Assembly: GCA_900757695.1 (NCBI GenBank)
Contig: CAAEOU010000159.1
Coordinates: forward strand, 1 to 15,321
Direction: 5' to 3'
Length of the DNA stretch: 15,321 nucleotides
Source of the DNA: an uncultured Oscillospiraceae bacterium
GTDB lineage: Bacteria > Bacillota_A > Clostridia > Oscillospirales > Oscillospiraceae
The notes under the pieces were generated by a model. It saw only the letters and a list, made by a program, of their open reading frames with translations, did not search any database and was not told the origin of the DNA. Every line of letters begins with the position of its first letter. Positions within the stretch are counted from its first letter, which is position 1. This document shows positions 1 through 15,321 of this stretch, in pieces. A program made the position numbers and the translations under genes.

Positions 1-1
1 C

Positions 2-652
2 GTGGCGACCTTCTGCGCCATGACGCTGCTGGTGCTGACGGTGGACACGACCATGATTGTTGCGCTGATTAAGCTGGTGCTGGGCATGCTTCTGGGCGGC
101 GTGCTGATGTTCGTGCTCTACAGCATCCTTTTGTGCATCGGCACAAAGAAAAATCCCTTGAAGTTCTTCAAAAAATGCCTGCCCAACTTTATCCTGTTCA
201 TGACCTTTTGCAGCACCAGCGCAGTTATGCCGCAGACCCTGGACACCTGCACCCACCGGCTGGGCATTTCTCCAAAGATCAGCTCCTTCTCCATGCCCCT
301 TGGCTCTACCATCAATATGGATGGGGCCTGCGTCTATCTGACCCTCAGCACGCTGTTTCTGGCGGCGGTCTACCATGTGCCGGTGACGCCGGATATGCTC
401 ATCAAGCTGGCAGTGACCATCGTGATCCTGTCCATGGGTGCGCCGCCCATTGCCGGCGCGGGCTTTATCTGCCTGTCCATTCTGGTGCTCCAGATCGGCG
501 TTCCCATTGAGGGCCTGGGGGTGCTCATGGGCATCGACCAGATCATGAGCATGGTGCGTACCCTCATCAACGGCACCGGCGACTTTGTGGGCACTGCCGT
601 GGTGGCGGCCAGCGAGAAGCTCATGGACGATGCGGTATTTGATCAAGCATAA
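2..652 (+). CDS. DAACS-family dicarboxylate/amino acid:cation symporter (3' part)
   Basis: C-terminal 216 residues of a sodium- or proton-coupled secondary transporter of the glutamate/dicarboxylate (GltPh/DctA) family; the true start lies left of the window. Visible family landmarks are the hairpin-1 serine motif (SSAVMPQTL), the unwound TM7 motif TINMDG, the hairpin-2 stretch APPIAGAGF, and the TM8 motif ending RTLINGTGDFVGTA. Aligned by eye to GltPh, the TM8 residues Asp390, Arg397, Thr398, Asn401 and Asp405 are kept, but the position of Asp394, which holds the amino group of aspartate, is Ser (GIDQIMSMVRT), as in DctA. This points to a dicarboxylate or other acidic substrate without an alpha-amino group rather than aspartate/glutamate; that is inference. 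A terminator follows, so the gene ends its own transcript. Family assignment is firm, substrate is open. Confidence 0.9.
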   Translation: MATFCAMTLLVLTVDTTMIVALIKLVLGMLLGGVLMFVLYSILLCIGTKKNPLKFFKKCLPNFILFMTFCSTSAVMPQTLDTCTHRLGISPKISSFSMPLGSTINMDGACVYLTLSTLFLAAVYHVPVTPDMLIKLAVTIVILSMGAPPIAGAGFICLSILVLQIGVPIEGLGVLMGIDQIMSMVRTLINGTGDFVGTAVVAASEKLMDDAVFDQA

Positions 653-692
653 TGGCATATTGAATATTTTGTATAAAGATGCATCATCTATG

Positions 693-734
693 ATATCCCG
701 CAGACCATTTGGCTGCGGGATATGGTGCTTTTTC
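693..734 (+). terminator. Intrinsic terminator of the symporter gene
   Basis: A perfect 11-bp stem, ATATCCCGCAG (693-703) with CTGCGGGATAT (713-723), closes a 9-nt loop and is followed by GGTGCTTTTTCC, giving a U-tract. It sits 40 bases after the symporter stop codon. Confidence 0.85.
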
Positions 735-804
735 CTGAAAAATGCAGAAAAACCTCCAAAAGTAGTAAAAATAAAAAGTTTTTTAAGTAAAATGTTGAAT
801 CCAC

Positions 805-833
805 TTGAAACGGCACGGCTGCCGTGCTAAAAT
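805..833 (+). promoter_or_regulatory. Promoter of the EAL gene with palindromic spacer
   Basis: TTGAAA (805-810) and TAAAAT (828-833) are separated by exactly 17 bases, close to the sigma-A consensus. The spacer holds a perfect inverted repeat GCACGGC-T-GCCGTGC (813-827) that fills the gap up to the -10 element, a natural place for a dimeric repressor or a spacer-distorting activator. The regulator is not identifiable from the window. Confidence 0.55.
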
Positions 834-929
834 TATCAGGGTAAAATTCAGGAACGGAAATAACTGGAAATACATGCGGTCTGACTGGTTTTGCAGCAGA
901 CACGGATGTTATGGTGTGTGCCGGTATGG

Positions 930-943
930 CCGGTGTACACCGG
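930..943. repeat. 14-bp perfect palindrome in the EAL-gene leader
   Basis: CCGGTGTACACCGG reads the same on both strands and lies 18 bases before the chosen ATG, just upstream of the GAGGGA ribosome binding site. It could be a dimeric operator or a small leader hairpin. Confidence 0.5.
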
Positions 944-961
944 AATAAGCGAGGGAACGGT

Positions 962-3367: not shown

Positions 3368-3378
3368 CACAATCAAGG

Positions 3379-3418
3379 ACAGCCGCCGGCAGATGAGTGC
3401 CGGCGGCTGTGTTTTTTG
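3379..3418 (+). terminator. Strong intrinsic terminator after the EAL gene
   Basis: A 13-bp perfect stem, ACAGCCGCCGGCA (3379-3391) with TGCCGGCGGCTGT (3398-3410), has a 6-base loop and is followed by GTTTTTTG. It lies between the convergent EAL and SDR genes; on the minus strand there is no U-tract, so it mainly serves the plus strand. Confidence 0.9.
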
Positions 3419-3432
3419 TTCTTTTCCTATGC

Positions 3433-4197
3433 TCAGATCGTCATGCCGTGGTCTACGGTGAGCACCTGTCCGGTGATCCCGGCGGCCTCATCAGAGGCGA
3501 GAAAGCAGATGGCATTGGCCTGATCCTGCACGGTGCACTGGGGCACATCGTCCAGGGCCATATGGCTGTTGCACTGGGCGGCAAAATCCGCATCAAAGGT
3601 GGCAATCTGGTCCGGGGTGTTCAGTGCGGTGGGGGTGGGGCCCGGGCAGACCACATTGACCCGGATGTTGCCCGGAGCAAATTCCAGCGCTACATTCTTG
3701 CTCATGCCGATGACGGCGGTTTTTGCGGTGGTATAGGCAAGGCCCGAGTTGGAGCGGACTGCGCCGATGGAGGAGATATTGACGATGGCGCCCTTTCCGG
3801 CGTCCTTCATGTGGGGCAGTACGGCCTGCATCATATAGAAGACGGAGTTCTGGTTGATCTCCAGCACATGACGGTACCAGTCGGTTTCCAGCCGGTCAAT
3901 GGGCCGGTGCTTGTCTGCGATCCCGGCGTTGTTCACCAGAATGTCAATGGCACCAAAATGGGAGGCGGCGGTCTCCGCAAGGCGGCAGCAGTCCTCCTGA
4001 CGGCTCACATCGGCGCACACCGGCAGCACCTCTACACCCTCGGCGGCGCAGGCTTCGGCGGCGGCCTTCAGCTTTTCGGTATTCCGGGCCGCAAGCACCA
4101 GATTGCAGCCCTCCTTGGCCAGCGTCTTTGCGGTGCAGGCTCCAATGCCGGAGCTGGCTCCGGTAATAATGGCGGTTTTACCCTGAAAACGATTCAT
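3433..4197 (-). CDS. Classical SDR-family NAD(P)-dependent oxidoreductase
   Basis: A 254-residue soluble alcohol/ketone oxidoreductase of normal length for classical short-chain dehydrogenases (FabG-like). The cofactor motif TGASSGIG is at 12-19, NNAG at 89-92, and the catalytic set N115, S142, Y155, K159 is complete (Y-TTA-K). Arg after the second strand (LAARN, about 36-39) favours NADP(H) over NAD(H), an inference. The start ATG at 4197 is preceded on the minus strand by a GGAAAGGA-type ribosome binding site. It is transcribed divergently from an adjacent LysR gene, which probably controls it. Substrate cannot be read from the sequence. Known phloroglucinol reductases are SDRs, so a link to the aromatic pathway 6 kb to the right is possible, but a generic hydroxy-acid or sugar-derivative dehydrogenase is equally likely. 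Confidence 0.9.
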   Translation of the reverse strand: MNRFQGKTAIITGASSGIGACTAKTLAKEGCNLVLAARNTEKLKAAAEACAAEGVEVLPVCADVSRQEDCCRLAETAASHFGAIDILVNNAGIADKHRPIDRLETDWYRHVLEINQNSVFYMMQAVLPHMKDAGKGAIVNISSIGAVRSNSGLAYTTAKTAVIGMSKNVALEFAPGNIRVNVVCPGPTPTALNTPDQIATFDADFAAQCNSHMALDDVPQCTVQDQANAICFLASDEAAGITGQVLTVDHGMTI

Positions 4198-4238
4198 CGC
4201 TCAGCTTCATCCTTTCCTGTATGGAATGTCTGAACCTA

Positions 4239-4267
4239 GGATAACACAGGTTTTTCTTGCTGACCAA
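4239..4267 (-). promoter_or_regulatory. Possible promoter of the SDR gene
   Basis: Read on the minus strand, TTGGTC (4267-4262) and TTATCC (4244-4239) are 17 bases apart, placing transcription start near 4232. Both hexamers are weak, as expected for an activator-dependent promoter. Confidence 0.35.
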
Positions 4268-4285
4268 TATCCAGATCTTGAATTT

Positions 4286-4318
4286 ATGATAGCCAAATGG
4301 CTATAAATATGCTATCAT
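4286..4318. promoter_or_regulatory. Overlapping inverted repeats, candidate LysR binding site
   Basis: Two symmetrical elements overlap here: ATAGCC-AAAT-GGCTAT (4289-4304) and ATGATAGC (4286-4293) with GCTATCAT (4311-4318). The first is of the interrupted ATAx/xTAT type typical of LysR regulators and is centred about 65 bases upstream of the predicted SDR transcription start, the usual place of a LysR recognition site. It also covers the predicted -10 of the LysR gene (TTGAAT 4278-4283, 18 bases, TATAAA 4302-4307), which would explain autorepression. Confidence 0.55.
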
Positions 4319-4349
4319 GGAAAAAACGGCGGAAGGGAGCGAAAGCGGC

Positions 4350-5243
4350 ATGACATCCCTGCAAATCACCTACTTTTTGAAGGTGGCAGACTGTATGAGC
4401 TTTTCCGGGGCCGCAGAGGAGCTGTTCGTTTCACAGCCCTCGGTGAGCCGTCAGGTGCAGCTGCTGGAAGCGGAGCTGGGGCACCGGCTCTTTGATCGGA
4501 GCAGCAAGCGGAAGCTGCGGCTGACCCCGGCGGGGGCCGTGTTCCGGGATTTCTTTCAGCGATCCGTCCGGGGCATGGAATCCGCCAAGATCACGGCGGG
4601 CGCATTGGAGACCGGACAGCTGCGGATCCGGGTGGGCATCGGGCTGGGCTGGGATTTTACCGACCAGCTGTTGGAATTTCGAAAGCAGGCGCTGGCCCTC
4701 TATCCCACGGCGGAATTGTACTTTGAAAGCGACAGCTTCCGCAATCTGCAAAGTCAGGTGCGCAACGGGGCGCTGGACGTGATCCTGTGTACGGAGAGCA
4801 GCGTCCAGCTCTATGACGATCTGGAGATTCAGCTGGTGAACCGGATCCGGGGAAGGGCCTTTGTGCGGAAGGGGCTTCTGACCCCGGAGGGAACGCCCTT
4901 GCAGATCCGGGACTTTGACGGGCAGAACCTCTTGATGCTGCCGGAGGAGGAGGAGACCCCCGTGACCCTTCAGATGGTGATGCTGCAATTTCTGGACGGC
5001 GGCGCCAAGCCAAGGCCCGTGACCCTGCCCAACCGGGATTCCATCTATCAGGCGGTGCTCCGGGGCGAGGGCTTTGCGGTGTTTGACGAGCACATGAGCA
5101 TTGCGGTGGATCCACGCATCGACTCCATGCCTCTGGCGGGGAAGATCACCCTGAGCATGGTGCGGGCCAGAAAGAACGAAAATCCCCTGATCCGGCTGCT
5201 GGGGCAGGTCATGAGCCAGCCCATGGAGGCGGAAGCCACATAA
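4350..5243 (+). CDS. LysR-family transcriptional regulator
   Basis: A 297-residue regulator of typical LysR length. Residues 1-60 form the winged helix-turn-helix, with the characteristic run SFSGAAEELFVSQPSVSRQ followed by a linker helix; from about residue 90 on is the two-lobed effector-binding domain (it starts LRIRVGIGLGW). ATG at 4350 is preferred, with GGAAGGGA 11 bases upstream; the in-frame ATG at 4317 lies inside the inverted repeat and promoter and has no ribosome binding site. It is divergent from the SDR gene with a symmetrical site between them, the standard LysR arrangement, so the SDR gene is the likely target. The effector is unknown. Confidence 0.92.
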   Translation: MTSLQITYFLKVADCMSFSGAAEELFVSQPSVSRQVQLLEAELGHRLFDRSSKRKLRLTPAGAVFRDFFQRSVRGMESAKITAGALETGQLRIRVGIGLGWDFTDQLLEFRKQALALYPTAELYFESDSFRNLQSQVRNGALDVILCTESSVQLYDDLEIQLVNRIRGRAFVRKGLLTPEGTPLQIRDFDGQNLLMLPEEEETPVTLQMVMLQFLDGGAKPRPVTLPNRDSIYQAVLRGEGFAVFDEHMSIAVDPRIDSMPLAGKITLSMVRARKNENPLIRLLGQVMSQPMEAEAT

Positions 5244-5255
5244 TATATAATAGAG

Positions 5256-5295
5256 ACGACCCTGCTGCGGATGGCATGTTCCACAGCAGGGTCGT
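5256..5295. terminator. Shared hairpin between convergent LysR and GrpE genes
   Basis: A 12-bp perfect stem, ACGACCCTGCTG (5256-5267) with CAGCAGGGTCGT (5284-5295), has a 16-base loop. It sits 12 bases after the LysR stop and 10 bases past the GrpE stop. Downstream on the minus strand is a T-rich run (CTCTATTATATATTAT); the plus side lacks a clear U-tract, so it is a better terminator for the chaperone operon. Confidence 0.65.
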
Positions 5296-5305
5296 ATTGT
5301 GAGAT

Positions 5306-5746
5306 TCAGTTGGCCACGGCCACCAGCGTGTGCCGGAGCACAACGCCCTCCCGGACGAAGCCGGTGCGGATCACCCGCACCACCATGCCCTCTCCATACT
5401 GGGGATCCTCAATGTGCTCCACGGCCTCGTGGAGCCGGGGATCAAAGGGCTGGCCTTCGGCGGGGATTTCCGCCACACCCAAGTCGGCAAGGGACTTCAG
5501 AAGGCTCTGGAGGGTCAGCTCGATGCCAGTGCGGAAGTCCTTGTCCTGACAGGGCTGCTCCAGCGCCAGCTTTAAGTTGTCATAGACGGGAAGCAGCGCC
5601 GCAATGGCATCGCTGCCGCCCTGCCGGTAGGCGTCCTCCCGGACGGAGGCATTCCGCCGCCGGAAGTTCTGATATTCCTGATTCAGTTCGCCCATTTTTG
5701 TTTCCAATGCCGCATGGGCGCTGCGGGATACAAAGGGTAAGCTCAT
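5306..5746 (-). CDS. grpE: Short GrpE-family nucleotide exchange factor
   Basis: A 146-residue GrpE-like co-chaperone that would release ADP from an Hsp70. It has a coiled-coil N-terminal helix with a QxFRRR element and the characteristic GrpE core, LLPVYDNLKLALEQP followed by FRTGIELTLQSLLKSL, then the C-terminal beta domain (FDPRLHEAVEHIEDP, VVRVIRTGFVREGVVLRHT). It is shorter than usual (about 180-200), lacking most of the N-terminal tail. ATG at 5746 is favoured, with GAGGTG 6 bases before it; a GTG at 5755 would overlap the ribosome binding site. It is the last gene of the minus-strand operon, directly after the J-domain gene. It could be a paralogue rather than the housekeeping GrpE, because no dnaK or hrcA is adjacent. 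Confidence 0.85.
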   Translation of the reverse strand: MSLPFVSRSAHAALETKMGELNQEYQNFRRRNASVREDAYRQGGSDAIAALLPVYDNLKLALEQPCQDKDFRTGIELTLQSLLKSLADLGVAEIPAEGQPFDPRLHEAVEHIEDPQYGEGMVVRVIRTGFVREGVVLRHTLVAVAN

Positions 5747-5756
5747 GTTATGCACC

Positions 5757-6440
5757 TCAACAGCAGAAGTAGAAGCCCCGGCCGCCGCAGCAGGCGTTCA
5801 GCAGGCACCAGGACAGGCAGATGGGGTTGCAGAAGCTGCTCTGGAACCCGGTGGAAAAGCCGTGGCTGGCCCCGGCATTCTGGTACATGCGTCCGCCGGA
5901 CTGGATCAGCTGATAGAACTGCTGATATTCGCTGTTGCCCGGGGACAGGCTCATGGCCTTGCGGATGTGCTCCATGGCCGCCACCCGGTTGCCCTGCCCA
6001 TAGTTGGCCTGAGCGCTGAAATAGTACCAGCGGTGATCCCGATCCCCCTCAGGGATGGTGGAGAGCACATGGAGCGCCTCGGTATAGGCGCCGGCCTGAA
6101 TATAGTGGAGGGCCGCCTGCATGTCCGTGGAGTCTCTGGTCTCGTACTGAGTGTGATACTGCTGCCGCTGCTGATAGCCCCCAAAGGGGTCATAGCCGTA
6201 GCCGAAGGGATCATAGCCCCCCTGACTGTAGCCCCCGTAGCCTCCGGAGGACTGCTGCTGGGCTTGAGGATTCTTGATCTGATCGTAGGCGGCGTTGAGC
6301 TCGTTCATCTTCCGCTCGCACTCTTTATCCCCCGGATGGAGATCCGGGTGATATTTTTTTGCCAGCTTGCGGTAGGCGGCCTTGATCTCGTCCTCACTGG
6401 CGGTTCTGGGAACTCCAAGCACCTCATAGGGGTCTCTCAT
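5757..6440 (-). CDS. J-domain protein with Gly/Tyr-rich linker, TPR-like region and Cys-rich tail
   Basis: A 227-residue Hsp40-type co-chaperone. Residues 1-60 are a J domain with the Hsp70-activating HPD tripeptide (31-33) in YHPDLHPG; residues 65-95 are Gly/Tyr/Phe-rich (repeated [16 protein letters not shown]); residues 105-180 are helical and resemble tetratricopeptide repeats ([17 protein letters not shown]). The end is unusual: seven cysteines in the last 25 or so residues in a hydrophobic Gly/Phe context, which might insert in a membrane, carry lipid or bind metal. It lacks the zinc domain and peptide-binding domain of true DnaJ. Its ATG overlaps the DUF5685 stop (ATGA, 6437-6440), so the two are translationally coupled. 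The likely partner is an Hsp70 encoded elsewhere. Confidence 0.9.
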
Positions 6441-7300
6441 GTCGTTTTGTCTCCTTCATTTTCGTCTCTTTCTGTTCTGCGGTGATGCCGCTGAAAGGCT
6501 CTGGCGTATTTCTGCCAGACTCCGGCGTACAGAATGTTCCGCATCAGCGGCAGATCCTGTTCTAGCGGCAGCTGCTCAAAGGCCCGGGTGGCATCGCCCA
6601 GCAGCATGGTCAGCAGGTCATAGTCCCCTTCCGGGGTGCGCTGGCCCCCCAGCGCCCGGAGCGGGTTGGGGCGGTGGTGCTTTTCATCGCTGTGATAGTC
6701 GAGGCATGCGTCCATAATATAGATAAACTGCCCCAGACCGTTTCCCATGGCCCGGAGCACCGGGGCAAAATGATCGTCTTCCTTCCAGACAAACAGCTCC
6801 CCCATGAGCCTGCCGAAACAGGCGGCGGCGGCATCGGCGGAAACCTCCGGGCCGTCCTCATAGCGGTGGAGCTCCCCAAGATTCTCCCGGATGGCAAGGG
6901 CCTGCCGGGGATACTTCTGCTCCAGCGCACGGAAATCCTTTTGGAGCAGCCCTGCAAAGGCACGGCTGGGGAGGCTCTTATCGTCCTCCCAGTTGTCCAT
7001 ACAGTTCCACCATGCCAGCAGCAGGTTCAGGTCGGCGGCATACTGGGTAAACCGGTTCTGCCACCAGAGGCGCTTTCGGATGGGATGCACCGGACAGCGA
7101 GCGGCGCCGGACTGCTCCTCCGGCTCATAGAGGGAGGACAGCACCAGCACCAGAAACGTCATATCATAGGTCAGGGTCATGCGGCCGGAGAAGCCGTAAT
7201 CGTCACTGAGCTTCCGGCACAGGCCGCAGTAGCAGCCGCTGTAGCGCCGGATCTCCTCCTCCGACAGCAGGGATGCATCGGCGGTAATATATCCAAACAT
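6437..7300 (-). CDS. DUF5685-family protein
   Basis: A 287-residue, largely helical protein of a family common in Clostridia and often found beside J-domain genes; its function is not established. The N-terminus is family-typical (MFGYIT) with a cysteine cluster (C23, C25, C28 in GCYCGLC) and a later CPVHP (69-73), together possibly a metal site. Two acidic motifs stand out: D102-N-W-E-D-D107 and, after a conserved Gln, D197-A-C-L-D201-Y-H-S-D205, the second in the context [13 protein letters not shown], which recalls the second Asp-rich motif of all-alpha isoprenoid synthases. The start overlaps the stop of the upstream gene (TGATG, 7298-7302) and its stop overlaps the J-domain start, so the operon is tightly coupled. 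Confidence 0.75.
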
Positions 7301-7701
7301 CAGCTGTTCCTTTCAAATACATGACCGCAGCACTTGCAGGTGATGCGGATATGCCCCTTTCCCTTGGGTACCCGCAAAACGGTGCCGCACTGGGGGCATT
7401 TGAAAAAGCAATACAGATTCTTTTGCCGGCGGCGGGCTTTGATCCGGCCGGAAATGGCCGTCAGGGGCGCAATCTTCTGGAGATACCACTGGTTCTCCGC
7501 ACGGCGGCGGGCAACGTTCCGGCTGAAAATGCGGAAATAGCAGAGAATCAGGCAGAGCAGCGCCAACAGCCAGAGCACGGAGCTGGCGGTGCCCTTTAGG
7601 AACATGGCAACGATCAAAAGAATACAGGCCGAACCGCTGGCGGTCATGGAAAGAGCGTCAGGGCCGTTGCGCCCGGAAAGAAATGGTTTTTTCCTTCTCA
7701 T
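7300..7701 (-). CDS. Small membrane protein with C-terminal zinc ribbon
   Basis: A 133-residue protein of unknown function. A basic N-terminus (MRRKKPF) leads into two hydrophobic segments (about residues 20-60), followed by a basic linker rich in Arg/Lys and a C-terminal zinc-ribbon: CPQC, 14-residue spacer, CKCC, ending HVFERNS. The ribbon would lie in the cytoplasm if both segments span the membrane as a hairpin. ATG at 7701 is chosen over an upstream GTG at 7728 because an AGGTGAGG-type ribosome binding site lies just before it. It is the first gene of the operon with DUF5685, J-domain and GrpE genes. Possible roles are membrane docking of the chaperone partners or nucleic-acid binding; neither is shown. 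Confidence 0.75.
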   Translation of the reverse strand: MRRKKPFLSGRNGPDALSMTASGSACILLIVAMFLKGTASSVLWLLALLCLILCYFRIFSRNVARRRAENQWYLQKIAPLTAISGRIKARRRQKNLYCFFKCPQCGTVLRVPKGKGHIRITCKCCGHVFERNS

Positions 7702-7742
7702 ATGCCTCACCTGCCTTCCTGCTGCCAAAATTTCTTAGTCTC

Positions 7743-7751
7743 ATAGTAGCA
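7743..7751 (-). promoter_or_regulatory. Possible extended -10 promoter of the chaperone operon
   Basis: On the minus strand TGCTACTAT (7751-7743) matches an extended -10 (TGnTAnnAT) about 42 bases before the first ATG. No good -35 is present at 17 bases, so support is limited. Confidence 0.3.
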
Positions 7752-7821
7752 GGCGAATATGAACAGGATATAAACAGCGGGAAATTTTTTTCGTTTCGAA
7801 TTGGAATCTTTCCCCACTGTG

Positions 7822-7850
7822 TTTACAAGGACGGACGGGAATGGTATAAT
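7822..7850 (+). promoter_or_regulatory. Strong sigma-A-type promoter of the transhydroxylase operon
   Basis: TTTACA (7822-7827), a 17-base spacer and a perfect TATAAT (7845-7850), the latter preceded by TGG so that it is also an extended -10. Transcription would start near 7857, giving a leader of about 208 bases before the first gene. Confidence 0.75.
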
Positions 7851-7914
7851 GCGAATAAACCGAAATGGGGCACCAAAAATCTATGATTTTGTGCAGAATA
7901 ACGGGAAAAGGGCC

Positions 7915-7967
7915 TTGACTCTGGTACAATACCATGGTTTAGAATAAGGCAAGATGCAATACCGTGG
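7915..7967 (+). promoter_or_regulatory. Second promoter-like segment with direct and inverted repeats
   Basis: TTGACT (7915-7920) and TAGAAT (7940-7945) are 19 bases apart, a spacing used by MerR-type activated promoters, and the spacer holds TGGTA-CAA-TACCA (7922-7934). The word CAATACCRTGG occurs twice, at 7927-7937 and 7957-7967, exactly 30 bases apart. TGGTACAAT (7922-7930) could also act as an extended -10 and resembles TGGTATAAT of the upstream promoter. Confidence 0.4.
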
Positions 7968-7988
7968 AGTTACTACGGCATTTTGCAG

Positions 7989-8040
7989 CGGCCCATTGGG
8001 TTCCGAAGGGCCGGGTCTTCCGATTCCGGAGCACCGGCCT
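7989..8040 (+). promoter_or_regulatory. Structured leader with mutually exclusive stems
   Basis: CGGCCC (7989-7994) can pair with GGGCCG (8008-8013), while GGCCGG (8009-8014) can pair with CCGGCC (8034-8039) around an inner CTTCCG/CGGAG helix. Both use 8009-8013, so only one can form. The second stem ends 10 bases before the ribosome binding site of the first gene; no U-tract follows. It does not match a riboswitch I can name. Confidence 0.35.
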
Positions 8041-8064
8041 GGCAGGAAAGTGAGGTGGAAATCA

Positions 8065-8529
8065 ATGAGTGAAGAGAAAAAGGTCCGGCACAGCCGTGAC
8101 AGAGACCGGCGGGAGAATCACGACAACGATGTGGAGCTCCGGCCCATGGAAAAGGACGGCGACAAGCTCTTAAAGGCGCTGGACGACGGAAAGATCGCAG
8201 CCATTCAGTCCGGTCTTGAAATCATGTACGTCTTTATCATGCGCCATGACTACCGCTGCTTCATCCATAAGATGGACGCAGAGGAGGGGCGGCAGAAGGC
8301 GTTCCCGGTGAATGAGCGCAACCGTGCCATGTTCAAGAATCTGGCTTCGCTGGCAGACGGCCTTTTTGAGATCACCCCCAAGGGCCATATGAACCCCTTA
8401 GGCGCCATGGTGGCGGCGGAGCGGGGCATCATCGCATATCTGGACGCAACCGGACAGCTGCCTGCTGAGGATCAGGACTTTATGAGCTGGCAGGAGGCTG
8501 CCGGAAAAGAACATACAGAGGGAGGCTAA
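8065..8529 (+). CDS. Unknown 154-aa protein, first gene of the transhydroxylase operon
   Basis: I do not recognise this protein. The N-terminal 35 residues are very charged and probably disordered (KKVRHSRDRDRRENHDNDVE). The middle (about 45-120) looks like a compact alpha domain with FIMRHDYRCFIHKMDAEEG and a helix pair ending in GAMVAAERGIIAYLDATGQL. It has a single Cys, no membrane segment and no signal peptide. ATG at 8065 has GAGGTGG 6 bases upstream. It lies 3 bases ahead of the next small gene and begins a same-strand series of seven genes ending with the transhydroxylase small subunit, so a role in that enzyme's maturation, regulation or substrate handling is a guess from context only. 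Confidence 0.75.
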   Translation: MSEEKKVRHSRDRDRRENHDNDVELRPMEKDGDKLLKALDDGKIAAIQSGLEIMYVFIMRHDYRCFIHKMDAEEGRQKAFPVNERNRAMFKNLASLADGLFEITPKGHMNPLGAMVAAERGIIAYLDATGQLPAEDQDFMSWQEAAGKEHTEGG

Positions 8530-8532
8530 AAC

Positions 8533-8730
8533 TTGAAAACCTATAAGTTTGTCTGTAGAAGTACCCGGCGCGGCTTCACCGAGTGGGCCAGCGTCATGGA
8601 GGACGGCGTAGAGGTACGCCGGATCGACCGGGACGTATGGCAGGAGACTGTCCGCCAGTTCCGGGAGCGGGTGGGCGCACAGCTGGAGGCCGAGGGCTAT
8701 CAGCTGGCCGAGCATCAGTATACACTCTGA
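8533..8730 (+). CDS. Unknown 65-aa protein
   Basis: A small basic/acidic protein that I do not recognise. It starts with TTG at 8533, 7 bases after a GAGGGAGG ribosome binding site overlapping the end of the previous gene, and only 3 bases after that gene's stop, which argues that it is real and translationally coupled. The sequence suggests a short beta hairpin (KTYKFVCRS, ASVMEDGVEVRRID) followed by one amphipathic helix (VWQETVRQFRERVGAQLEAEG). There is one cysteine (C8). It might be a subunit or an interaction partner of its neighbours. Confidence 0.65.
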   Translation: MKTYKFVCRSTRRGFTEWASVMEDGVEVRRIDRDVWQETVRQFRERVGAQLEAEGYQLAEHQYTL

Positions 8731-8754
8731 TTTTTACGGAAGAAGGTGCATAGA

Positions 8755-9219
8755 ATGACAGAGATTTCTCTTCTGATCCAGCATCATGCGGGCCCCACCG
8801 GTGATGTGCTGGTATGTCAGCGGCCCGACGGCGTCTGGGAACTGCCCAAGGGCTACATTCGTGTCAATGAGACACCGGAAACTGCCGTGCAGCGCACTGC
8901 ATGGGAGACCGTGGGCGTTCAGGCCAAGGCCGGGAAGCTCATTACACAGGGAAAGAAGTATAAGAAGGACGGAACCGTAGAGCACATTCCCTGCGGCAAC
9001 ATCACCCACAACACCCATACCAAATGCGATGAGCACTGGTACTATGAGGCAGTGGACGTCTATCAGGAGGAGCCCAAGGCCGGTGCCTACAGCGCATTCC
9101 AGTGGGTGCATCCCTCCGAGCTGGGGACGGTGGCTCTTCAGGGGGACGATCAGGCGTTCCTCCAGAAGTATGATCCGTGGATCAATGGACGCACCATTCC
9201 CGATGTGCGGATGTATTAA
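8755..9219 (+). CDS. Nudix-fold protein with a degenerate Nudix box
   Basis: A 154-residue protein with the overall layout of a Nudix hydrolase: an N-terminal strand (ISLLIQHHAG), VWELPKGYI as the lead into the box, and a C-terminal WVHPSEL typical of the family. The Nudix box (Gx5Ex7REUxEExGU) runs G33, E39, R47, then T48, A49, E51, T52, G54, V55: two of the three metal-binding glutamates of the RExxEE core are Thr, and only E51 remains. Ordinary diphosphate hydrolysis is therefore doubtful; ligand sensing, as in Nudix-domain regulators, or a changed chemistry is possible. ATG at 8755 is preferred over GTG at 8746, which would overlap the AGAAGG ribosome binding site. It is the third gene of the operon. 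Confidence 0.75.
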   Translation: MTEISLLIQHHAGPTGDVLVCQRPDGVWELPKGYIRVNETPETAVQRTAWETVGVQAKAGKLITQGKKYKKDGTVEHIPCGNITHNTHTKCDEHWYYEAVDVYQEEPKAGAYSAFQWVHPSELGTVALQGDDQAFLQKYDPWINGRTIPDVRMY

Positions 9220-9230
9220 GGAGGGGCACC

Positions 9231-9530
9231 ATGAAAAAGTATTATTGCGAGGCCCAGAAGAAGCAGCTGGAAAAGCCCACGGAGCCGAAATACGTTTTCT
9301 GCACCACGGCAAAGTGCTTTGTTCTGGCAGAGAATGACGACGACGCCATCCAAAAGGCTGCGGCGGAATTCCGGGAGATGTACCACGGCACCGGCACGGT
9401 GCTGGGGAAGATCCGGATCACCAAGTCTGTGGAGCTTCCTGTAGACTGGAGCTATGGCGAGGGCGAAGCTGCAAAACCCGGCGATCAGGACGCCATGGAT
9501 GCGCTGATTGCCCATAACGTGATCCGATAA
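9231..9530 (+). CDS. Unknown 99-aa protein
   Basis: Not recognised. It starts at ATG 9231 after AAGGAGGGG (spacing about 4-6). Three cysteines (C6, C24, C29) lie in the N-terminal third, in YYCEAQKKQ and YVFCTTAKCFVLAEN; they could bind metal but do not form a standard motif. An alpha helix (DDDAIQKAAAEFREMYHGTG) and a beta strand (VLGKIRITKSVEL) follow, and the end is acidic. There are no membrane segments. It is separated from its neighbours by 11 and 14 bases. Function unknown; membership in the transhydroxylase operon is the only clue. Confidence 0.7.
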   Translation: MKKYYCEAQKKQLEKPTEPKYVFCTTAKCFVLAENDDDAIQKAAAEFREMYHGTGTVLGKIRITKSVELPVDWSYGEGEAAKPGDQDAMDALIAHNVIR

Positions 9531-9544
9531 GAGGAGGAAGCAGG

Positions 9545-10066
9545 ATGGATCTTGTGAAAAAATATGTGCTCCGGCTGCCCGACGGTGTAAAGACCGTGGA
9601 GAAGCAGGAGATCGTGGATCGGGTGAAGGAGATCCTGAAGGATCATCCCAGTGAGCATATGAACGCCTATCGGGTCTGGTATGAGGGCTTCGAGGGCTGC
9701 GGTATGCCCGGCACCGATGTATACGATGTGATCGTGGAGACCATGCGCTCCATGCCCGAGGACTGGAAGGACATCGGCCCCATGCGGATGGAAAAGTACG
9801 GCGTCATTGACCCCACCTTCCTGAACCTCCACTATGCCACCGCCCAGAAGCGGGCAGACGCCCCCGGCGGCCCCGTGGAGATGCTGCTGCACCAGTTCCA
9901 TGCAGGCAAGCACTATCAGGGCCCCGATGGCCGTGTGTTCTGGATCCCGGTGATCGAGGACTTTGATATGCGCTGCTTTGAGCGCAGGGATGGAAAATAT
10001 GTGGGCACCATGGTGGAGATCGACCCCAGAAGCGACTATGCCCGCCAGATGATCGAAGTGAAGTAA
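9545..10066 (+). CDS. Unknown 173-aa protein directly upstream of the transhydroxylase
   Basis: Not recognised. It is soluble, mixed alpha/beta, with notable segments YRVWYEGFEGCGMPG (about 40-54), MRSMPEDWKDIGPMRMEKYG, LLHQFHAGKHYQGPDGRVFW and a Tyr/Arg-rich end. The His and Tyr residues of HQFHAGKHY could form a ligand site. The ATG is preceded by AAGAGGAGGAAG. It ends 15 bases before the large subunit gene, and its codon use is already the C-ending, CGC/CGT-rich type of the subunit genes, suggesting comparable expression. An enzyme-specific chaperone for molybdopterin insertion, an accessory subunit, or an enzyme handling the tetrahydroxybenzene co-substrate are all possible; none is demonstrated. 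Confidence 0.75.
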   Translation: MDLVKKYVLRLPDGVKTVEKQEIVDRVKEILKDHPSEHMNAYRVWYEGFEGCGMPGTDVYDVIVETMRSMPEDWKDIGPMRMEKYGVIDPTFLNLHYATAQKRADAPGGPVEMLLHQFHAGKHYQGPDGRVFWIPVIEDFDMRCFERRDGKYVGTMVEIDPRSDYARQMIEVK

Positions 10067-10081
10067 GGAGGACTGCACATT

Positions 10082-12832
10082 ATGGAAAAAATACCTATGC
10101 GTTCCGACTCCAAGAAGGAGCGTATTACCCACAGCGTCTGCGTTGGCGGCCCCATGACCCTTCACACCATCGATGGCGTGATCCGCCGTGTTCGCCCCAT
10201 TGTGCTGACAGACGATGACCCCGCAGGCTGGGTGATTAAGGCCCGGGGCAAGGAATATACCCCCCAGAGAAAGACCACCATGAGCCTGCTGGGCTACTGC
10301 GAGCGGGATAAAACCTATGCCTATGACCGCCTGAAGTACCCCATGATCCGGGAGGACTTTGTAGAGACCCCCGACGGCAAGAACCGCAACACCGAGAACC
10401 GTGGTAAGTCCGGCTACCGCCGTGCCTCCTGGGATGAGGCCCTGAGCCTTGTGGCCAGAGAGATCAAGCGTCTCCAGAAGACCTACGGCAAGGAGACCAT
10501 CACCGCATGTACCTCCTCCCACCACTCCTGGGGACTGGTAGGCTATAAGATCTCCCTGTTTAAGCGCTTCTTCTCCATGATGGGCTATACCCGTATTGCC
10601 GATAACCCGGACTCCTGGGAGGGCTTCCACTGGGGCACCCCCCATTCCTACGGCTACTATTGGCGTCTGGGCGGCCCCGAGCCCTATGATATGCTGGAGA
10701 TGGCCATGCAGAATACCGAGACCATCGTCTGCTGGTCCACGGACCCCGATACCAGCCGCGGCGGCTACTCCGCACAGGAGTCTGCTCTGTGGCGCTGGTG
10801 GATGAAGGAGATGGGCATCCAGTTCATCTACATCGATCCCTTCAATAACTACACCTCTGTGAAGCACGCCGACAAGTGGATCGGCCCCCGGATGGGCACC
10901 GATGCCGCACTGCTGGAGGCCATTGCCTATGTGTGGATCACCGAGGGTACCTATGATAAGGAATATGTGGCACAGCATGGCCACCGGTTTGAGGAGTTCA
11001 AGAACCACATCCTTGGCCTTGGCCCCGATGGCACGCCGAAGACCCCCAAGTGGGCCTCTGAGCTGAGCCTGGTTCCCGCCATGGACATCAAGGCCATTGC
11101 CCGCCGCTGGGCAAACTCCGTGACCACCGGCGGCTCCGGCATGCGCGGCGGCTTCGGCGGCGCCTGCCGTCACTCCAACGGCACCGAGTATGCCCGTCTG
11201 ATGACGCTGCTGTTTGCCATGCAGGGCATGGGCAAGCCCGGCCGTGCCTTCTGGAGCCCCGCCTGCGGCGGCCCCATGAACTATAACTTCTGGTTCGGCG
11301 GCTATTCCGATCCCCTGTCCTCCATTGCCGGTGCGCCCATCTGCGATGATGTGCCCGTGAACTCCGTGGAGCAGGTGCTCTACCGTACCAACGTGCCCGA
11401 TGCCATTCTGGACGGCCACTATGAGTGGTACGGCGAAGGCTTCTGCGGCGGCGGCGTGGATCAGGAGTTTACCCGCCATGTATACCCCGCACCCGGCTAC
11501 AATAAGGTTCACTGCTTCTGGCGTTACGGTGGTTCCTTCTTCGGCACCATGCTGGACACCAACAAGTGGGCCAAGATGTACAAGAGCCCCGAGCTGGAGT
11601 TCGTCATCAATCAGGACATCTATATGACCCCCGAGACCCGTCATGCGGACGTGATCCTCCCGGCCTGCACCAACCTGGAGCGTGTGGACATCGGTGAGGT
11701 GGGCAACTCCGGCAACGGCGGCTACTGCTCCCACTCTCAGACCGGCAACTCCTGGCAGGTCATCGTCTATCAGGATAAGGCCATTGAGCCCATGTGGGAT
11801 TCCCGTTCCGACTTCTGGATCTTCTCTCAGGTGGCAGCACGTCTGGGCTGGGGCGAGCGCTTTACCGAGGGCCGCACCGAGGAAGAGTGGGCCAAGCGCT
11901 TCTGGCAGTTCTCCGATCTGCCCAAGCACATCTCCTGGGAGGACTTCAAGAAGAAGGGCTACTACATCCCGCCGGTGTCCTACCATGAGGAGGACAAGGA
12001 TCCCAAGACCGGCCTCTATGAGAACTGGGATCGTTATCCCGGCTTCCAGTGGTTTGCGGAGAACCGTCCCTGCGATACCATGAACCATAAGGTCTTCCAG
12101 GAGGAGGGCAAGCTGGGCACCTTCTCCGGTAAGTTTGAGTTCGTGTCCGAGTCCCTGACCTACTGGGCGCCCGACGACGAGGCCCGCCGTCCCATTCCCC
12201 AGTATCAGGATTCCTGGGAGGGCTTCAAGAGCCTGTCTGCGGACAAGTATCCCTTCGGCCTGATCTCGCCCCATCCCCGGTTTGACTACCATACCCACTA
12301 TCAGCAGCACGCCAAGTGGCTGTGGGAGATCCCCAAGAACCGTCAGATCATCAATGGCAACCCCTATCTGGTCTGCCACATCAACCACAAGCTGGCGGAG
12401 CAGAAGGGCATCAAGGACGGCGACGTGGTACGGCTGTTCAATGACCGCGGCAGCTGCCTGATGGTGGCCCGTGTCACCTACCGCCTGTATCCGGAGACCA
12501 TCCATGCCTACACCTCCTCCGGTATCTATAACCCCATTGAGTACGGCGTTTATAAGAGCTGGGACAAGGGCGGCAGCATCAATGTGCTGACTCCCGGCCG
12601 CCTCATCGGCGACTATGTGCCCGCCATGGCACCCTACAGCTGCAACATCGACATCGAAAAGTGCGAGCCGGATCCCAACTATGGTCAGGGCTTTGAGCAC
12701 ATCCTCGACGAGGTGGACAAGCAGCAGCTGGAGACCGAGCGTCCTGTCCGTACTTCCATGGAAGCCGACATGCTCTTCGGCGAAAAGGAGCAGTGGCTCC
12801 GTGAGCAGCTTGCGAAGAAGGAGGCAATCTGA
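10082..12832 (+). CDS. athL: Pyrogallol-phloroglucinol transhydroxylase-type molybdopterin large subunit
   Basis: A 916-residue member of the DMSO-reductase family, recognisably co-linear with the large subunit of Pelobacter acidigallici transhydroxylase (about 875), which moves a hydroxyl between pyrogallol and 1,2,3,5-tetrahydroxybenzene to give phloroglucinol. It has no Tat signal and no N-terminal CxxCxxxC cluster motif, as in that enzyme. Aligned by eye, active-site residues (Pelobacter numbering from memory) are kept: His144 (H147, in SSHHSWGLVGY), Tyr152 (Y155), Asp174 (D177), the Mo-ligand Ser175 (S178, in NPDSWEG) and Tyr404 (Y408). Trp354 is Phe (F358, in GGFGGACR), and the Cys557/Tyr560 loop appears longer (GNSGNGGY, 541-548). 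Bis-molybdopterin-guanine-dinucleotide is the expected cofactor. ATG at 10082 follows AGGAGG. The small subunit gene starts 2 bases after the stop. A related catechol dehydroxylase or a different polyhydroxybenzene substrate cannot be excluded. Confidence 0.9.
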   Translation: MEKIPMRSDSKKERITHSVCVGGPMTLHTIDGVIRRVRPIVLTDDDPAGWVIKARGKEYTPQRKTTMSLLGYCERDKTYAYDRLKYPMIREDFVETPDGKNRNTENRGKSGYRRASWDEALSLVAREIKRLQKTYGKETITACTSSHHSWGLVGYKISLFKRFFSMMGYTRIADNPDSWEGFHWGTPHSYGYYWRLGGPEPYDMLEMAMQNTETIVCWSTDPDTSRGGYSAQESALWRWWMKEMGIQFIYIDPFNNYTSVKHADKWIGPRMGTDAALLEAIAYVWITEGTYDKEYVAQHGHRFEEFKNHILGLGPDGTPKTPKWASELSLVPAMDIKAIARRWANSVTTGGSGMRGGFGGACRHSNGTEYARLMTLLFAMQGMGKPGRAFWSPACGGPMNYNFWFGGYSDPLSSIAGAPICDDVPVNSVEQVLYRTNVPDAILDGHYEWYGEGFCGGGVDQEFTRHVYPAPGYNKVHCFWRYGGSFFGTMLDTNKWAKMYKSPELEFVINQDIYMTPETRHADVILPACTNLERVDIGEVGNSGNGGYCSHSQTGNSWQVIVYQDKAIEPMWDSRSDFWIFSQVAARLGWGERFTEGRTEEEWAKRFWQFSDLPKHISWEDFKKKGYYIPPVSYHEEDKDPKTGLYENWDRYPGFQWFAENRPCDTMNHKVFQEEGKLGTFSGKFEFVSESLTYWAPDDEARRPIPQYQDSWEGFKSLSADKYPFGLISPHPRFDYHTHYQQHAKWLWEIPKNRQIINGNPYLVCHINHKLAEQKGIKDGDVVRLFNDRGSCLMVARVTYRLYPETIHAYTSSGIYNPIEYGVYKSWDKGGSINVLTPGRLIGDYVPAMAPYSCNIDIEKCEPDPNYGQGFEHILDEVDKQQLETERPVRTSMEADMLFGEKEQWLREQLAKKEAI

Positions 12833-12834
12833 TT

Positions 12835-13707
12835 ATGCTGAAACACCCCATGAAAAAGCCCGGCATTGCCGTGAACTCCGCCCGGTGCATGGCCTGCTAC
12901 GCCTGCTTTATGGCCTGCAAGGACGAGCACTGCGGCTGGGATACCGACCTGAGCAAATCTCAGCCTGAGATGGGTCAGTACTGGATGAACATTAAGGAGT
13001 GGGAGCGTGGCGACAACGAGCGCCATATCAAGACTGCTACCGTTCCCACGCCCTGCTCCCACTGCGACAACCCCGCCTGCATGGCGGCAGCCAAGGACGG
13101 CGCAGTTTACAAGCGCCCCGACGGCATTGTGATCGTAGACCCGGAGAAGTCCAAGGGACAGAAGCAGATCGTAGACGCCTGCCCCATCGGCGCCATCTAC
13201 TGGAACGAGGAGGAGCAGATCCCCCAGAAGTGCACCATGTGCGCAGAGCTGCTGGATGACCCCAACTATCCCGGCTTTGAGCCCCGCTGCGTGGAGGCAT
13301 GTCCCAACCAGGCACTGGTATTCGGCGATCTGGCCGATCCCGACAGTGAGATCAGCAAGCTCATTGCCGCCAACAAGGTCACTCAGCTCAAGGAGCTTGG
13401 GACCATGGGCTCCAGCGTGGTACATCTGAACATCCCCGGGAAGTTCCTGGCCGGAACCGTGGCCTACCCCGAGGAGCTGGAAGAGGTCTGCATCGGCGCC
13501 AAGGTCAAGGTCACCTGCAATGAATGCGGCGCTACCTATGAGACCGAGACCAACTGGGCCGGTGACTGGGAGGTAGAGGATCTGCCCGAGGGCAAGAGCT
13601 GGACGGTGGACATCACCTTCCCGGGCTTTAAGCCTGTATGCTATCAGGATCAGCGCACCGACCACGATCACTATGTAGGCATCACCTATCTGGAGCCTGC
13701 GGAATAA
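12835..13707 (+). CDS. athS: Transhydroxylase iron-sulfur small subunit (three [4Fe-4S] clusters)
   Basis: A 290-residue electron-transfer partner of the molybdenum subunit. Twelve cysteines match the pattern of the Pelobacter small subunit: C18, C21, C24, C28; C74, C77, C82; C116; C133, C136; C152, C156, enough for three cubane clusters. As in that protein, the second group lacks a fourth Cys (A86). Family-typical stretches are YWMNIKEWERG, DGAVYKRPDGIVIVDPEK and IYWNEEEQIPQKCTMC. From about residue 200 there is a beta-rich C-terminal domain (VTCNECGATYETETNWAGDW, LPEGKSWTVDI), corresponding to the transthyretin/Cna-B-like domain of transhydroxylase, which ordinary ferredoxin subunits lack. 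ATG at 12835 fits the GAAGGAGG ribosome binding site inside the athL end better than the ATG at 12850. There is no signal peptide, so the complex should be cytoplasmic. Confidence 0.92.
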   Translation: MLKHPMKKPGIAVNSARCMACYACFMACKDEHCGWDTDLSKSQPEMGQYWMNIKEWERGDNERHIKTATVPTPCSHCDNPACMAAAKDGAVYKRPDGIVIVDPEKSKGQKQIVDACPIGAIYWNEEEQIPQKCTMCAELLDDPNYPGFEPRCVEACPNQALVFGDLADPDSEISKLIAANKVTQLKELGTMGSSVVHLNIPGKFLAGTVAYPEELEEVCIGAKVKVTCNECGATYETETNWAGDWEVEDLPEGKSWTVDITFPGFKPVCYQDQRTDHDHYVGITYLEPAE

Positions 13708-13718
13708 CACGATCCAAT

Positions 13719-13751
13719 GGTCCCTCCCGCAGCGCCGCTGCGGGAGGGACC
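13719..13751 (+). terminator. Perfect 16-bp hairpin after athS
   Basis: GGTCCCTCCCGCAGCG (13719-13734) and CGCTGCGGGAGGGACC (13736-13751) are exact complements with one base between them. There is no U-tract, so it may act as a factor-assisted terminator, an mRNA 3' stabiliser, or a processing site between athLS and the thiolase gene. Confidence 0.55.
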
Positions 13752-13817
13752 TGAAGGGGACTTCCGGCACGGCTCCTTGCGCTGCCTGTCGAATCAGGGA
13801 GAGGCGGCGGAAGGAGC

Positions 13818-13849
13818 TGGTTGGGATCCCGTAAAACCAACCATAATCA
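13818..13849 (+). promoter_or_regulatory. Inverted repeat and weak promoter before the thiolase gene
   Basis: TGGTTGG (13818-13824) and CCAACCA (13837-13843) form a perfect 7-bp repeat with a 12-base gap, overlapping the palindrome GGGATCCC (13823-13830). A -10-like CATAAT (13842-13847) begins at the right arm; the only -35-like hexamer, TTGGGA (13821-13826), is at 15 bases, so the promoter is weak or activator-dependent. Confidence 0.35.
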
Positions 13850-13879
13850 TTGCATCAATAAAGAGAGGAAGTATTTCCA

Positions 13880-15133
13880 ATGGAACTTCGTAATGTAGTT
13901 GTGGTAGACGGCTGCCGTACTGCAGTGGGCAAGTTCGGCGGCGCACTGCGTCCCGTCAGCGCCTATGATCTGGCATGTACCGTCATGAAGGGCTGCCTGG
14001 ACCGTACCGGCATCGACCCGACCCAGATCGATGAGGTCATTATGGGCCAGTGCCGTCAGACCTCCGATGAGCCCAATATTGCCCGTATGGCCGCCCTGAA
14101 GGTGGGCATTCCCGCTTCCGCTTCCGCCCATACCGTCATGCGCCAGTGTGCCTCCGCCATGACCGCCGTGCAGAACGGCGCCATGCAGATCATGACCGGC
14201 CTTTCCGATGTGGTGCTGGCAGGCGGTACCGAGTCCATGTCCAATGCGGTATTCTATGTGCGCGGCGCACGTTGGGGCGTGGGCACCGGCAACACCGAGT
14301 TTGTGGACGCCGTCACCGAGGGTCAGTTCCGCTCTCAGCCCCAGGAAATGTTTGGCCGCTATAACATGGGCGCTACGGCGGAGAAGATCGCCGAGACTTT
14401 GGGCATCACCCGGGAAGAGCAGGACGCCTTCTCCTTTGCCTCCCAGCAGAAGGCCATTGCCGCCATTGACGCCGGCAAGTTCAAGGACGAGATCGTTCCT
14501 GTGGTAGTTCCCCAGGGCCGCAAAAAGCCCCCCATTGTATTCGACACCGACGAATTTCCCAAGCGTGACACCAGCATGGAGAAGATGGCAAAGCTGAAGC
14601 CCTGCTTCAACATCACCACCGATGAAGAGGGCCGCATCTACAACAGCTCCGAGCTCACCGGCACCGTGACTGCCGCTTCCTCCTCCGGGCGGAATGACGG
14701 CGCATCCTGCATGCTGCTGATGACCGAGGAAAAGGCCAAGGAGCTGGGCCTGAAGCCCATCTGCCGGATCATCGGCATGGGTACCGCAGGCTGCGATCCC
14801 CGCACCATGGGCCTTGGCCCCGTGTACGCAGTGCCCAAGGCGCTGAAGAATGCGGGCCTGACCATGGATGACATTCAGCTCATTGAGCTTAACGAGGCCT
14901 TTGCCGCCCAGTCTCTGGGCTGCATCAAGCAGCTCCACTGGGAGGACAAGATGGACATCATCAATGTAAACGGCGGCGCCATTGCGCTGGGCCACCCCGT
15001 TGGCTCCTCCGGCTGCCGGATTCTTGTGACCCTGATGTATGAGATGAAGAAGCGGGGCCTCAAGTACGGCCTTGCCACGCTGTGCATTGCAGGCGGCATG
15101 GGTCAGGCCACTGTCATTGAAATGTGCGACTGA
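13880..15133 (+). CDS. Thiolase (acetyl-CoA C-acetyltransferase type)
   Basis: A 417-residue thiolase, slightly longer than the usual 390-400. It should cleave acetoacetyl-CoA with CoA to two acetyl-CoA, or run the reverse condensation. The catalytic set is complete: nucleophilic C90 (MRQCASAM), N338-E339 in NEAFAAQ, H372 in GGAIALGHPVGSSG, and C402 in LCIAGGMG. Around C90 the sequence is CASAM instead of the common C(G/A)SG, and SSSGRNDGAS replaces the usual NASGxNDGA, so chain-length or substrate preference may differ from textbook acetoacetyl-CoA thiolases. The ribosome binding site AGAGAGGAAG precedes ATG 13880. The next gene, a BKACE, starts 44 bases downstream without an intervening hairpin, so the two are probably co-transcribed. 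In phloroglucinol breakdown a thiolase would consume the acetoacetyl-CoA made by triacetate acetoacetate-lyase. Confidence 0.92.
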   Translation: MELRNVVVVDGCRTAVGKFGGALRPVSAYDLACTVMKGCLDRTGIDPTQIDEVIMGQCRQTSDEPNIARMAALKVGIPASASAHTVMRQCASAMTAVQNGAMQIMTGLSDVVLAGGTESMSNAVFYVRGARWGVGTGNTEFVDAVTEGQFRSQPQEMFGRYNMGATAEKIAETLGITREEQDAFSFASQQKAIAAIDAGKFKDEIVPVVVPQGRKKPPIVFDTDEFPKRDTSMEKMAKLKPCFNITTDEEGRIYNSSELTGTVTAASSSGRNDGASCMLLMTEEKAKELGLKPICRIIGMGTAGCDPRTMGLGPVYAVPKALKNAGLTMDDIQLIELNEAFAAQSLGCIKQLHWEDKMDIINVNGGAIALGHPVGSSGCRILVTLMYEMKKRGLKYGLATLCIAGGMGQATVIEMCD

Positions 15134-15177
15134 GCAACAACAACGCTTATAGATAGACTGGAAAGGATGTAATTACC

Positions 15178-15321
15178 ATGGCTAAATCCAATAAGATCAT
15201 GATTCAGGTATGCCTCTGCGGCGCCGGCACCAAGAAGGATAAGGCACCCACCGTTCCCTACACCGCCGATGAGCTGGCAGAGCAGATCGTTGCCTGCGCA
15301 AAGCTGGGCGCTTCTATTGCC
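15178..15321 (+). CDS. Beta-keto acid cleavage enzyme (BKACE/DUF849), N-terminal part
   Basis: The first 48 codons of a gene running off the right edge; the start is ATG 15178 after GAAAGGA. The visible residues have the family's opening: a first strand IMIQVCLCGAGTKKD, then PTVPYTADELAEQIVACAKLGA, matching the pattern of 3-keto-5-aminohexanoate cleavage enzyme and its relatives (VxxxGAxT, VPxTxxE, GA). These zinc-dependent TIM barrels (about 275-300 residues) condense a beta-keto acid with acetyl-CoA to give acetoacetyl-CoA or acetoacetate plus a new CoA ester. The zinc-binding His residues lie beyond the window. Next to a thiolase and 3' of a transhydroxylase, the triacetate acetoacetate-lyase role of phloroglucinol degradation is the most attractive reading; the lysine-fermentation role is the main alternative. 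Confidence 0.85.
   Translation, partial: MAKSNKIMIQVCLCGAGTKKDKAPTVPYTADELAEQIVACAKLGASIA

Follow-up and report, generated by a model that had tools for sequence, protein, structure and literature searches.

Five small genes preceding a pyrogallol transhydroxylase-type gene pair in gut Oscillospiraceae as candidate accessory genes of the enzyme

The conversion of pyrogallol to phloroglucinol is the gateway for fermentation of tannins and gallate by gut and rumen bacteria. We analyzed contig CAAEOU010000159.1 of an uncultured Oscillospiraceae bacterium (positions 1-15,321; these 15,321 nt are called the window below), in which five small genes, g1 to g5, stand directly before athL and athS, the predicted genes for the large and small subunits of a molybdenum (Mo) transhydroxylase of this type (Table 1). 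The five genes, here termed the prefix, recur in a stepwise distribution at athL loci of related bacteria and probably help to assemble or control AthLS. Loci and genomes used for comparison are designated by L and G numbers, respectively.

Results

The locus and its genes

Open reading frame analysis bore out the preliminary description of seven closely packed genes, in both their sizes and their positions. The gaps from g1 to athS measure 3, 24, 11, 14, 15 and 2 bases, a spacing that makes a single transcript across g1-athS likely, and purine-rich, Shine-Dalgarno-like stretches were recognized by eye in front of these genes. A longer g1 frame opens at 7954, while homolog alignments begin at about 8065; the listed frames of g3 and g4 open at 8746 and 9177. 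The strong single promoter that had been proposed is borne out as far as the upstream TTTACA-17-TATAAT site is the window's best consensus match (11 of 12 positions), but it is a match to a pattern only, and such sites occur on the two strands in near chance number (9 found, 6.6 +/- 2.3 expected). No Rfam element was found in the window, a result with no bearing on protein binding.

The five small genes are real genes, because orthologs of them occur in 25-35 of 63 athL loci (see below) and the rate of nonsynonymous substitution (dN) lies below that of synonymous substitution (dS). The latter held in 27 of 28 comparisons (seven genes, four relatives each), indicating purifying selection; the remaining one, g1 against L018, yielded no dS. 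The dN ranges were 0.33-0.43 for g3, 0.30-0.57 for g4, 0.29-0.41 for g1, 0.13-0.17 for g5 and 0.07-0.13 for g2, next to 0.12-0.13 for AthS and 0.04-0.06 for AthL, and g3 ranks among the faster evolving genes.

AthL matched the Pelobacter subunit 4v4c_A (E 2.9e-207, residues 14-864) and AthS matched 4v4c_B (E 3.1e-46, residues 11-264), and this near full-length similarity of both subunits assigns AthLS, on sequence grounds, to the pyrogallol-phloroglucinol transhydroxylase type. When the alignment was read by eye, H147, Y155, D177, S178 and W179 of the window AthL corresponded to H144, Y152, D174, S175 and W176 of the Pelobacter enzyme; Y404 was also kept, and R153 was replaced by lysine (K156). 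We take H144, Y152, D174, S175, W176 and Y404 to be active-site residues, the Mo-ligand serine among them. The C-terminal part of AthS resembles CarboxypepD_reg with a score under the curated cut-off.

Table 1. Features of the window and of comparison loci
Feature	Position	Strand	Remarks
g1	8065..8529	+	154 aa; predicted mixed alpha/beta; putative older core with g5
g2	8533..8730	+	65 aa, TTG start; putative later addition
g3	8755..9219	+	154 aa; Nudix fold, degenerate Nudix box
g4	9231..9530	+	99 aa; putative later addition
g5	9545..10066	+	173 aa; VapE-C-terminal-like N half, predicted SH3-like C half
athL	10082..12832	+	916 aa; pyrogallol transhydroxylase-type Mo enzyme, large subunit
athS	12835..13707	+	290 aa; iron-sulfur small subunit
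AthL last 37 residues (coding)	12719..12829	+	extend past the C-terminus of the closest prefix-less AthL (L029, L030, L104)
Thiolase gene	13880..15133	+	acetyl-CoA C-acyltransferase family; next gene after athS
Triacetate acetoacetate-lyase (TAL)-like gene, 5' part	15178..15321	+	cut by window end; L030 relative is BKACE PF05853
Promoter-like site TTTACA-17-TATAAT	7822..7850	+	extended -10 (TG); consensus match alone
AthL-like paralog	L006:3574-7126; L029:6085-9653; L030:3971-7529
AthL-like paralog, further loci	L007, L011, L015, L023, L026, L035, L036, L039, L090, L091, L092, L094, L095, L104, L120
Second AthL paralog (L107-L113)	G001:C39; G004:C1; G039:C6 and C93; G114:C142; G227:C329; G095:C104

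Distribution of the prefix genes

A single AthL scan of the species genome collection returned 63 loci, in which the prefix genes were sought by tblastn. The nearest relatives of the window are Oscillospiraceae assemblies, many of them labelled gut or rumen. All five genes were present in 25 loci, which form one gut Oscillospiraceae clade, while g1 and g5 alone were found in eight loci whose AthL is 78-81% identical to that of the window. L017 carries g1, g3 and g5, and L014 carries g5 with upstream DNA too short for the others. No prefix gene was detected by tblastn in six loci with an AthL identity of 49-70% (L040, among these, has almost no upstream DNA), nor in 16 loci encoding distant molybdoenzymes (approximately 21-25% identity); six further loci (L002, L032, L037, L038, L044 and L047) have no DNA upstream of athL. 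The nearest prefix-less relatives, L029, L030 and L104, have an AthL approximately 70% identical to that of the window and none of the five genes. Among loci whose AthL reached 78% identity and for which some upstream DNA was available, g5 was present in 35 of 35. The fixed five-gene prefix of the preliminary description is thus a property of one gut clade and not of the loci with g1 and g5 alone, of L017, of the deep relatives or of L029, L030 and L104. That description had also named absence of the small genes beside other close athL homologs as an outcome that would speak against it; they are absent beside some fairly close ones, and therefore cannot be required for this chemistry generally.

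A dedicated link of the small genes to the transhydroxylase is supported by two results. First, in a sample of 300 genomes of the family Oscillospiraceae, the g5 profile matched in 44, and in 43 of these g5 lay immediately upstream of an AthL with an identity of 64% or more, the gap being below 200 bases as judged by eye; in the remaining genome, G233, g1-g4 are followed by a g5 that is cut off by the contig end. Second, among 13 genomes tested, g5 and g1 were each present in single copy in eight and absent genome-wide from five, all of which are prefix-less relatives. AthL matched in at least 83 genomes of the family sample (E 1e-60, AthL-like paralogs counted); among the matches listed, those of at least 64% identity that had upstream DNA but no g5 were in G008, G009, G035 and the second copy of G224, which has a g1 relative, and nine more such listed pieces without g5 are cut by contig ends. 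Sampling was thinner at the level of order (345 genomes) and phylum (398 genomes); there, g5 genes were found just in G001 and G004, and just in G001, respectively.

In the protein database there were 224 g5-like, 491 g1-like and 217 g5C-like clusters (g5N and g5C denote the N- and C-terminal halves of g5), of which the best 120 each were inspected. Stand-alone g5C-like proteins were seen outside the sampled family in Sporomusa termitida, a cultured species (P0355), and in a Papillibacter sp. assembly (P0241); the module therefore reaches beyond that family. Among the deeper relatives, a g1 relative was found in L085, L087, L088, L090, L091, L092 and L094, and also in L105. In two related genomes, g1 and g5 are separated by a further small gene (L087:8862-9134, minus strand; L088:8196-8465, plus strand), and the L087 copy had no Pfam match up to E 0.001.

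An AthL tree of 64 rows fits stepwise accretion, from no prefix through g5 with g1 and the addition of g3 (L017) to the full set of five; the fork with L017 and L016 is not decided. The tree and the tail table described below left out (i) the near copies L003, L007, L009 and L033 and identical copies, (ii) AthL frames shorter than 700 aa, including L028, L034, L045, L046, L083, L085 and L090, and (iii) AthL-like copies with a profile score below 1100 and the second L040 copy.

The C-terminal tail of AthL

Tail length was measured in the same 64 rows, with the first residue of a fixed anchor motif (VPAMAPYS in the window AthL) taken as residue 1. Of the 41 prefix-bearing rows, 40 had a tail of 58-75 residues, and the tail comprised 18-41 residues in all 19 prefix-less rows, none of which had a long one; the four rows without upstream DNA were divided equally between long and short. 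In L089, the one exception (36 residues), the frame is shifted near position 5464 (minus strand), by recent mutation or through an error of assembly, and the usual tail can still be read from the DNA that follows in the next frame. In L105, the second AthL copy of genome G224, g1 but no g5 was found alongside, and the tail is kept; g5N and g5C accompany the other AthL of G224. The association, L105 included, points to a partner for the AthL tail.

The small proteins

Profile-profile comparison shows homology between the N-terminal half of g5 and the domain at the C-terminus of VapE-like replication proteins from phages. With hhalign, g5N scored 97.9% against eight VapE C-termini found by means of g5, and 95.6% against six independently chosen phage VapE C-termini; the corresponding values for whole g5 were 97.7% and 87.0%, while controls gave at most 0.4% (other prefix genes) and at most 1% (30 column shuffles). 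The helicase-like domain PF05272 was absent from the window g5 and from 82 g5 members. The structural model of g5, with a predicted local distance difference test (pLDDT) score of 94, is mixed alpha/beta, with a winged-helix-like N-terminal half and a C-terminal half that is probably an SH3-like barrel, the fold matches for the latter being weak. Across the 82 sequences, 26 columns are invariant, which marks g5 as strongly constrained. In deeper relatives (AthL identity 65-70%), g5 is often represented by two neighboring frames (L082, L083, L084 and L089-L095), encoding a g5N of approximately 81-86 aa and a g5C of approximately 65-71 aa (79 in L083); fused g5 occurs in the deep relatives L080 and L085-L088, and in the deep clade of the AthL tree the two forms are intermixed.

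Of the other prefix proteins, g3 matches the Nudix family (PF00293; E 1e-11, 45.4 bits against a cut-off of 21.1). The Nudix catalytic box has the consensus GX5EX7REUXEEXGU. In all 20 aligned copies of g3, the arginine of RE is followed by I, V, A, L or T and the second E of EE is gone, while the box retains its first glutamate, its arginine and the first E of EE. Because two box glutamates are lost, hydrolase activity of g3 appears doubtful, and, there being no intact catalytic box, g3 is more likely a binder or adaptor. The g1 model is also mixed alpha/beta, with a mean pLDDT of 75.

The alignments used 20 of 26 copies for g3 (A1), 18 of 25 for g2 (A2), 25 of 35 for g5 (A3), 26 of 34 for g1 (A4) and 19 of 25 for g4 (A5). 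Among the copies left out were those of L013 (g5) and L003 (g4), each with an in-frame stop inside the matched stretch, and the g1 copies of L006 and L007, which end a few codons before the set limit.

Pathway context and neighboring genes

Thiolase and TAL-like genes follow athS in the window, a context of phloroglucinol degradation. Of the 47 closest loci, many of which are cut by contig ends, 18 have a thiolase gene and 17 have a TAL-like gene. In Clostridium scatologenes the phloroglucinol cluster comprises PGR, DPGC, TfD and TAL, with DPGC, a member of the cyclase family, as the ring-opening enzyme, according to the available part of PMC10470551. A cyclase-family gene (PF04199; query from L030), presumably encoding DPGC to judge from its family and neighbors, was present in 13 of 13 genomes tested, the query's own genome counted. 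It is adjoined in L030 by 3-hydroxyacyl-CoA dehydrogenase-type and BKACE genes, and in several genomes it lies on a different contig from athL. Phloroglucinol-transformation genes, pgthAB included, were broadly expressed in catechin-fed microcosms, as the accessible part of PMC12203004 reports.

Between athS and the thiolase gene lies a perfect 15-bp inverted repeat with a 3-base loop (13719-13751). The surrounding stretch (13706-13760) folds at -36 kcal/mol and has no T run, and the repeat may uncouple the two parts in expression or adjust their levels. Elsewhere among the loci compared, its 11-base word turned up only in L047 and in L084, one time in each. Upstream of the prefix, the window encodes a response-regulator/GGDEF/EAL protein (911-3367; Pfam), with a 13-bp terminator-like hairpin 3' of the gene (3379-3410).

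Two kinds of AthL paralog were also observed. The first, AthL-like kind (18 different copies of the large subunit, 894-1022 aa, AthL profile score 544-591) is often accompanied by a small subunit and often stands beside the cluster; its L006 copy has an AhtL-like domain (PF21423). The second is 60-62% identical to AthL and has no prefix in its neighborhood, which was tabulated for all of these loci but L112; some genomes, such as G001 and G004, carry it alongside a prefix-bearing AthL. Downstream of the TAL-like gene in L006 are MoeA-type and radical-SAM MoaA-type genes (16642-17883 and 18925-19869; Pfam), and similar molybdenum cofactor frames in L039 were recognized by eye alone.

Discussion

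We favor the explanation that g1-g5 encode clade-specific accessory proteins of AthLS, a core of g1 and g5 with later additions, that serve assembly, activation or stability of the enzyme, and we put the probability of this at a little under one half (about 0.48). The core would dock on AthL through the C-terminal extension found just in prefix-bearing lineages and, once docked, would help to assemble, activate or stabilize the Mo/iron-sulfur enzyme; we infer both the binding and its effect. The genes g2, g3 and g4 would have been inserted later between g1 and g5, with g3 acting as a binder or adaptor rather than as a hydrolase. More tentatively, a Mo transhydroxylase may have recruited a mobile-element-type domain together with g1, and then a pseudo-Nudix protein and two small proteins, the winged helix being fused later to an SH3-like barrel, to form a complex that docks on a co-evolved AthL extension; this would be a new kind of Mo-enzyme accessory module.

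Several points weigh against an accessory role. The genes are dispensable for the enzyme family, since prefix-less relatives use an AthL approximately 70% identical. Tail similarity between the two prefix-bearing clades is only weak, and the tree position of the prefix-less L029, L030 and L104 is not fixed. Because there were few independent evolutionary events, prefix and tail may have been gained or lost together once and so mark the same lineage. Neither the g5 nor the g1 model had a match in the PDB at Foldseek E <= 0.001, and the g1 model is of middling confidence. Finally, the winged-helix domain predicted in g5 would fit a DNA-binding regulator equally.

Because of that domain, the main rival is that g5 is an autoregulator, whose winged-helix half binds the promoter or leader while its SH3-like half, with g1 or g3, senses a polyphenol or metabolite. 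We consider this unlikely, as the window g5 is acidic (net charge -6, isoelectric point 5.5; split g5N proteins range from -4 to +1), its third helix, TDVYDVIVETMR, contains three acidic residues, with a single arginine at the helix end, its gene stands at the end of the prefix adjoining athL, and its halves are separate proteins in many deep relatives.

We regard as improbable that the prefix consists of mobile-element remnants, or a stand-alone unit, settled before athL without effect on the transhydroxylase. The kinship of g5N to a phage or mobile-element protein domain would suit such hitch-hiking, as would the further small gene between g1 and g5 in L087 and L088, and 3 of 18 members of the g2 family had a borderline match (best E 0.0012) to phrog_411, an undescribed phage family, which may be a second tie to phage proteins. 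However, phage-family matches of g1 and g4 were weak and scattered, and long conservation under purifying selection, exclusive adjacency to athL in the family sample and the association with the AthL tail all speak against hitch-hiking.

A dedicated chaperone gene belongs to the operon of many Mo enzymes, and the position of the prefix directly before the large-subunit gene would suit a TorD/NarJ-type chaperone that escorts apo-AthL and inserts the cofactor. We give this little credence: none of the five proteins had a Pfam match of this type up to E 1, nor did any of 82 g5 and 69 g1 members up to E 0.5, and the g5 and g1 models are mixed alpha/beta rather than all-helical. A maturation factor of another kind is part of the accessory explanation that we favor. 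The transhydroxylase reaction needs 1,2,3,5-tetrahydroxybenzene as co-substrate, and the co-located prefix might supply or recycle it, as had been suggested, but this is very improbable: no credible enzyme-family match was obtained for g1, g2, g4 or g5 (Pfam; for g1 and g5 also with family members), g3 has lost catalytic-box glutamates, and the DPGC-like pathway gene is also present in prefix-less relatives.

If the accessory explanation is true, expressing the enzyme, or predicting it, from its two subunits alone would miss dedicated partners, and the partner set would mark a recognizable lineage of polyphenol degraders. The g5-VapE homology and the AthL-tail association were unforeseen, and mobile-element kinship, split and fused forms and a matching tail together offer a concrete example, open to test, of how a molybdoenzyme may have recruited accessory proteins step by step.

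Comparison with known systems

As in the C. scatologenes cluster, TAL-like genes, together with thiolase genes, accompany the enzyme, following athLS in many loci; small accessory genes are not mentioned in the available parts of PMC10470551 or PMC12203004, and our search of the open-license literature, part of it available, found no description of these small genes. Like Nudix hydrolases (PF00293), g3 matches the family above its cut-off, but two glutamates of the catalytic box are lost in all 20 aligned copies. The N-terminal half of g5 is homologous to the domain that ends the VapE-like replication proteins of mobile elements (PF05272) and PriRep1 (7pds), the fold match being weak, whereas g5 has no helicase or primase domain and appears to carry an SH3-like barrel in its place. 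The closest system is AthLS of Pelobacter acidigallici (PDB 4v4c), both subunits of which align nearly end to end with those of the window; the aligned Pelobacter chain ends approximately 50 residues before the window AthL does, and the window operon has five small genes besides those for the two subunits.
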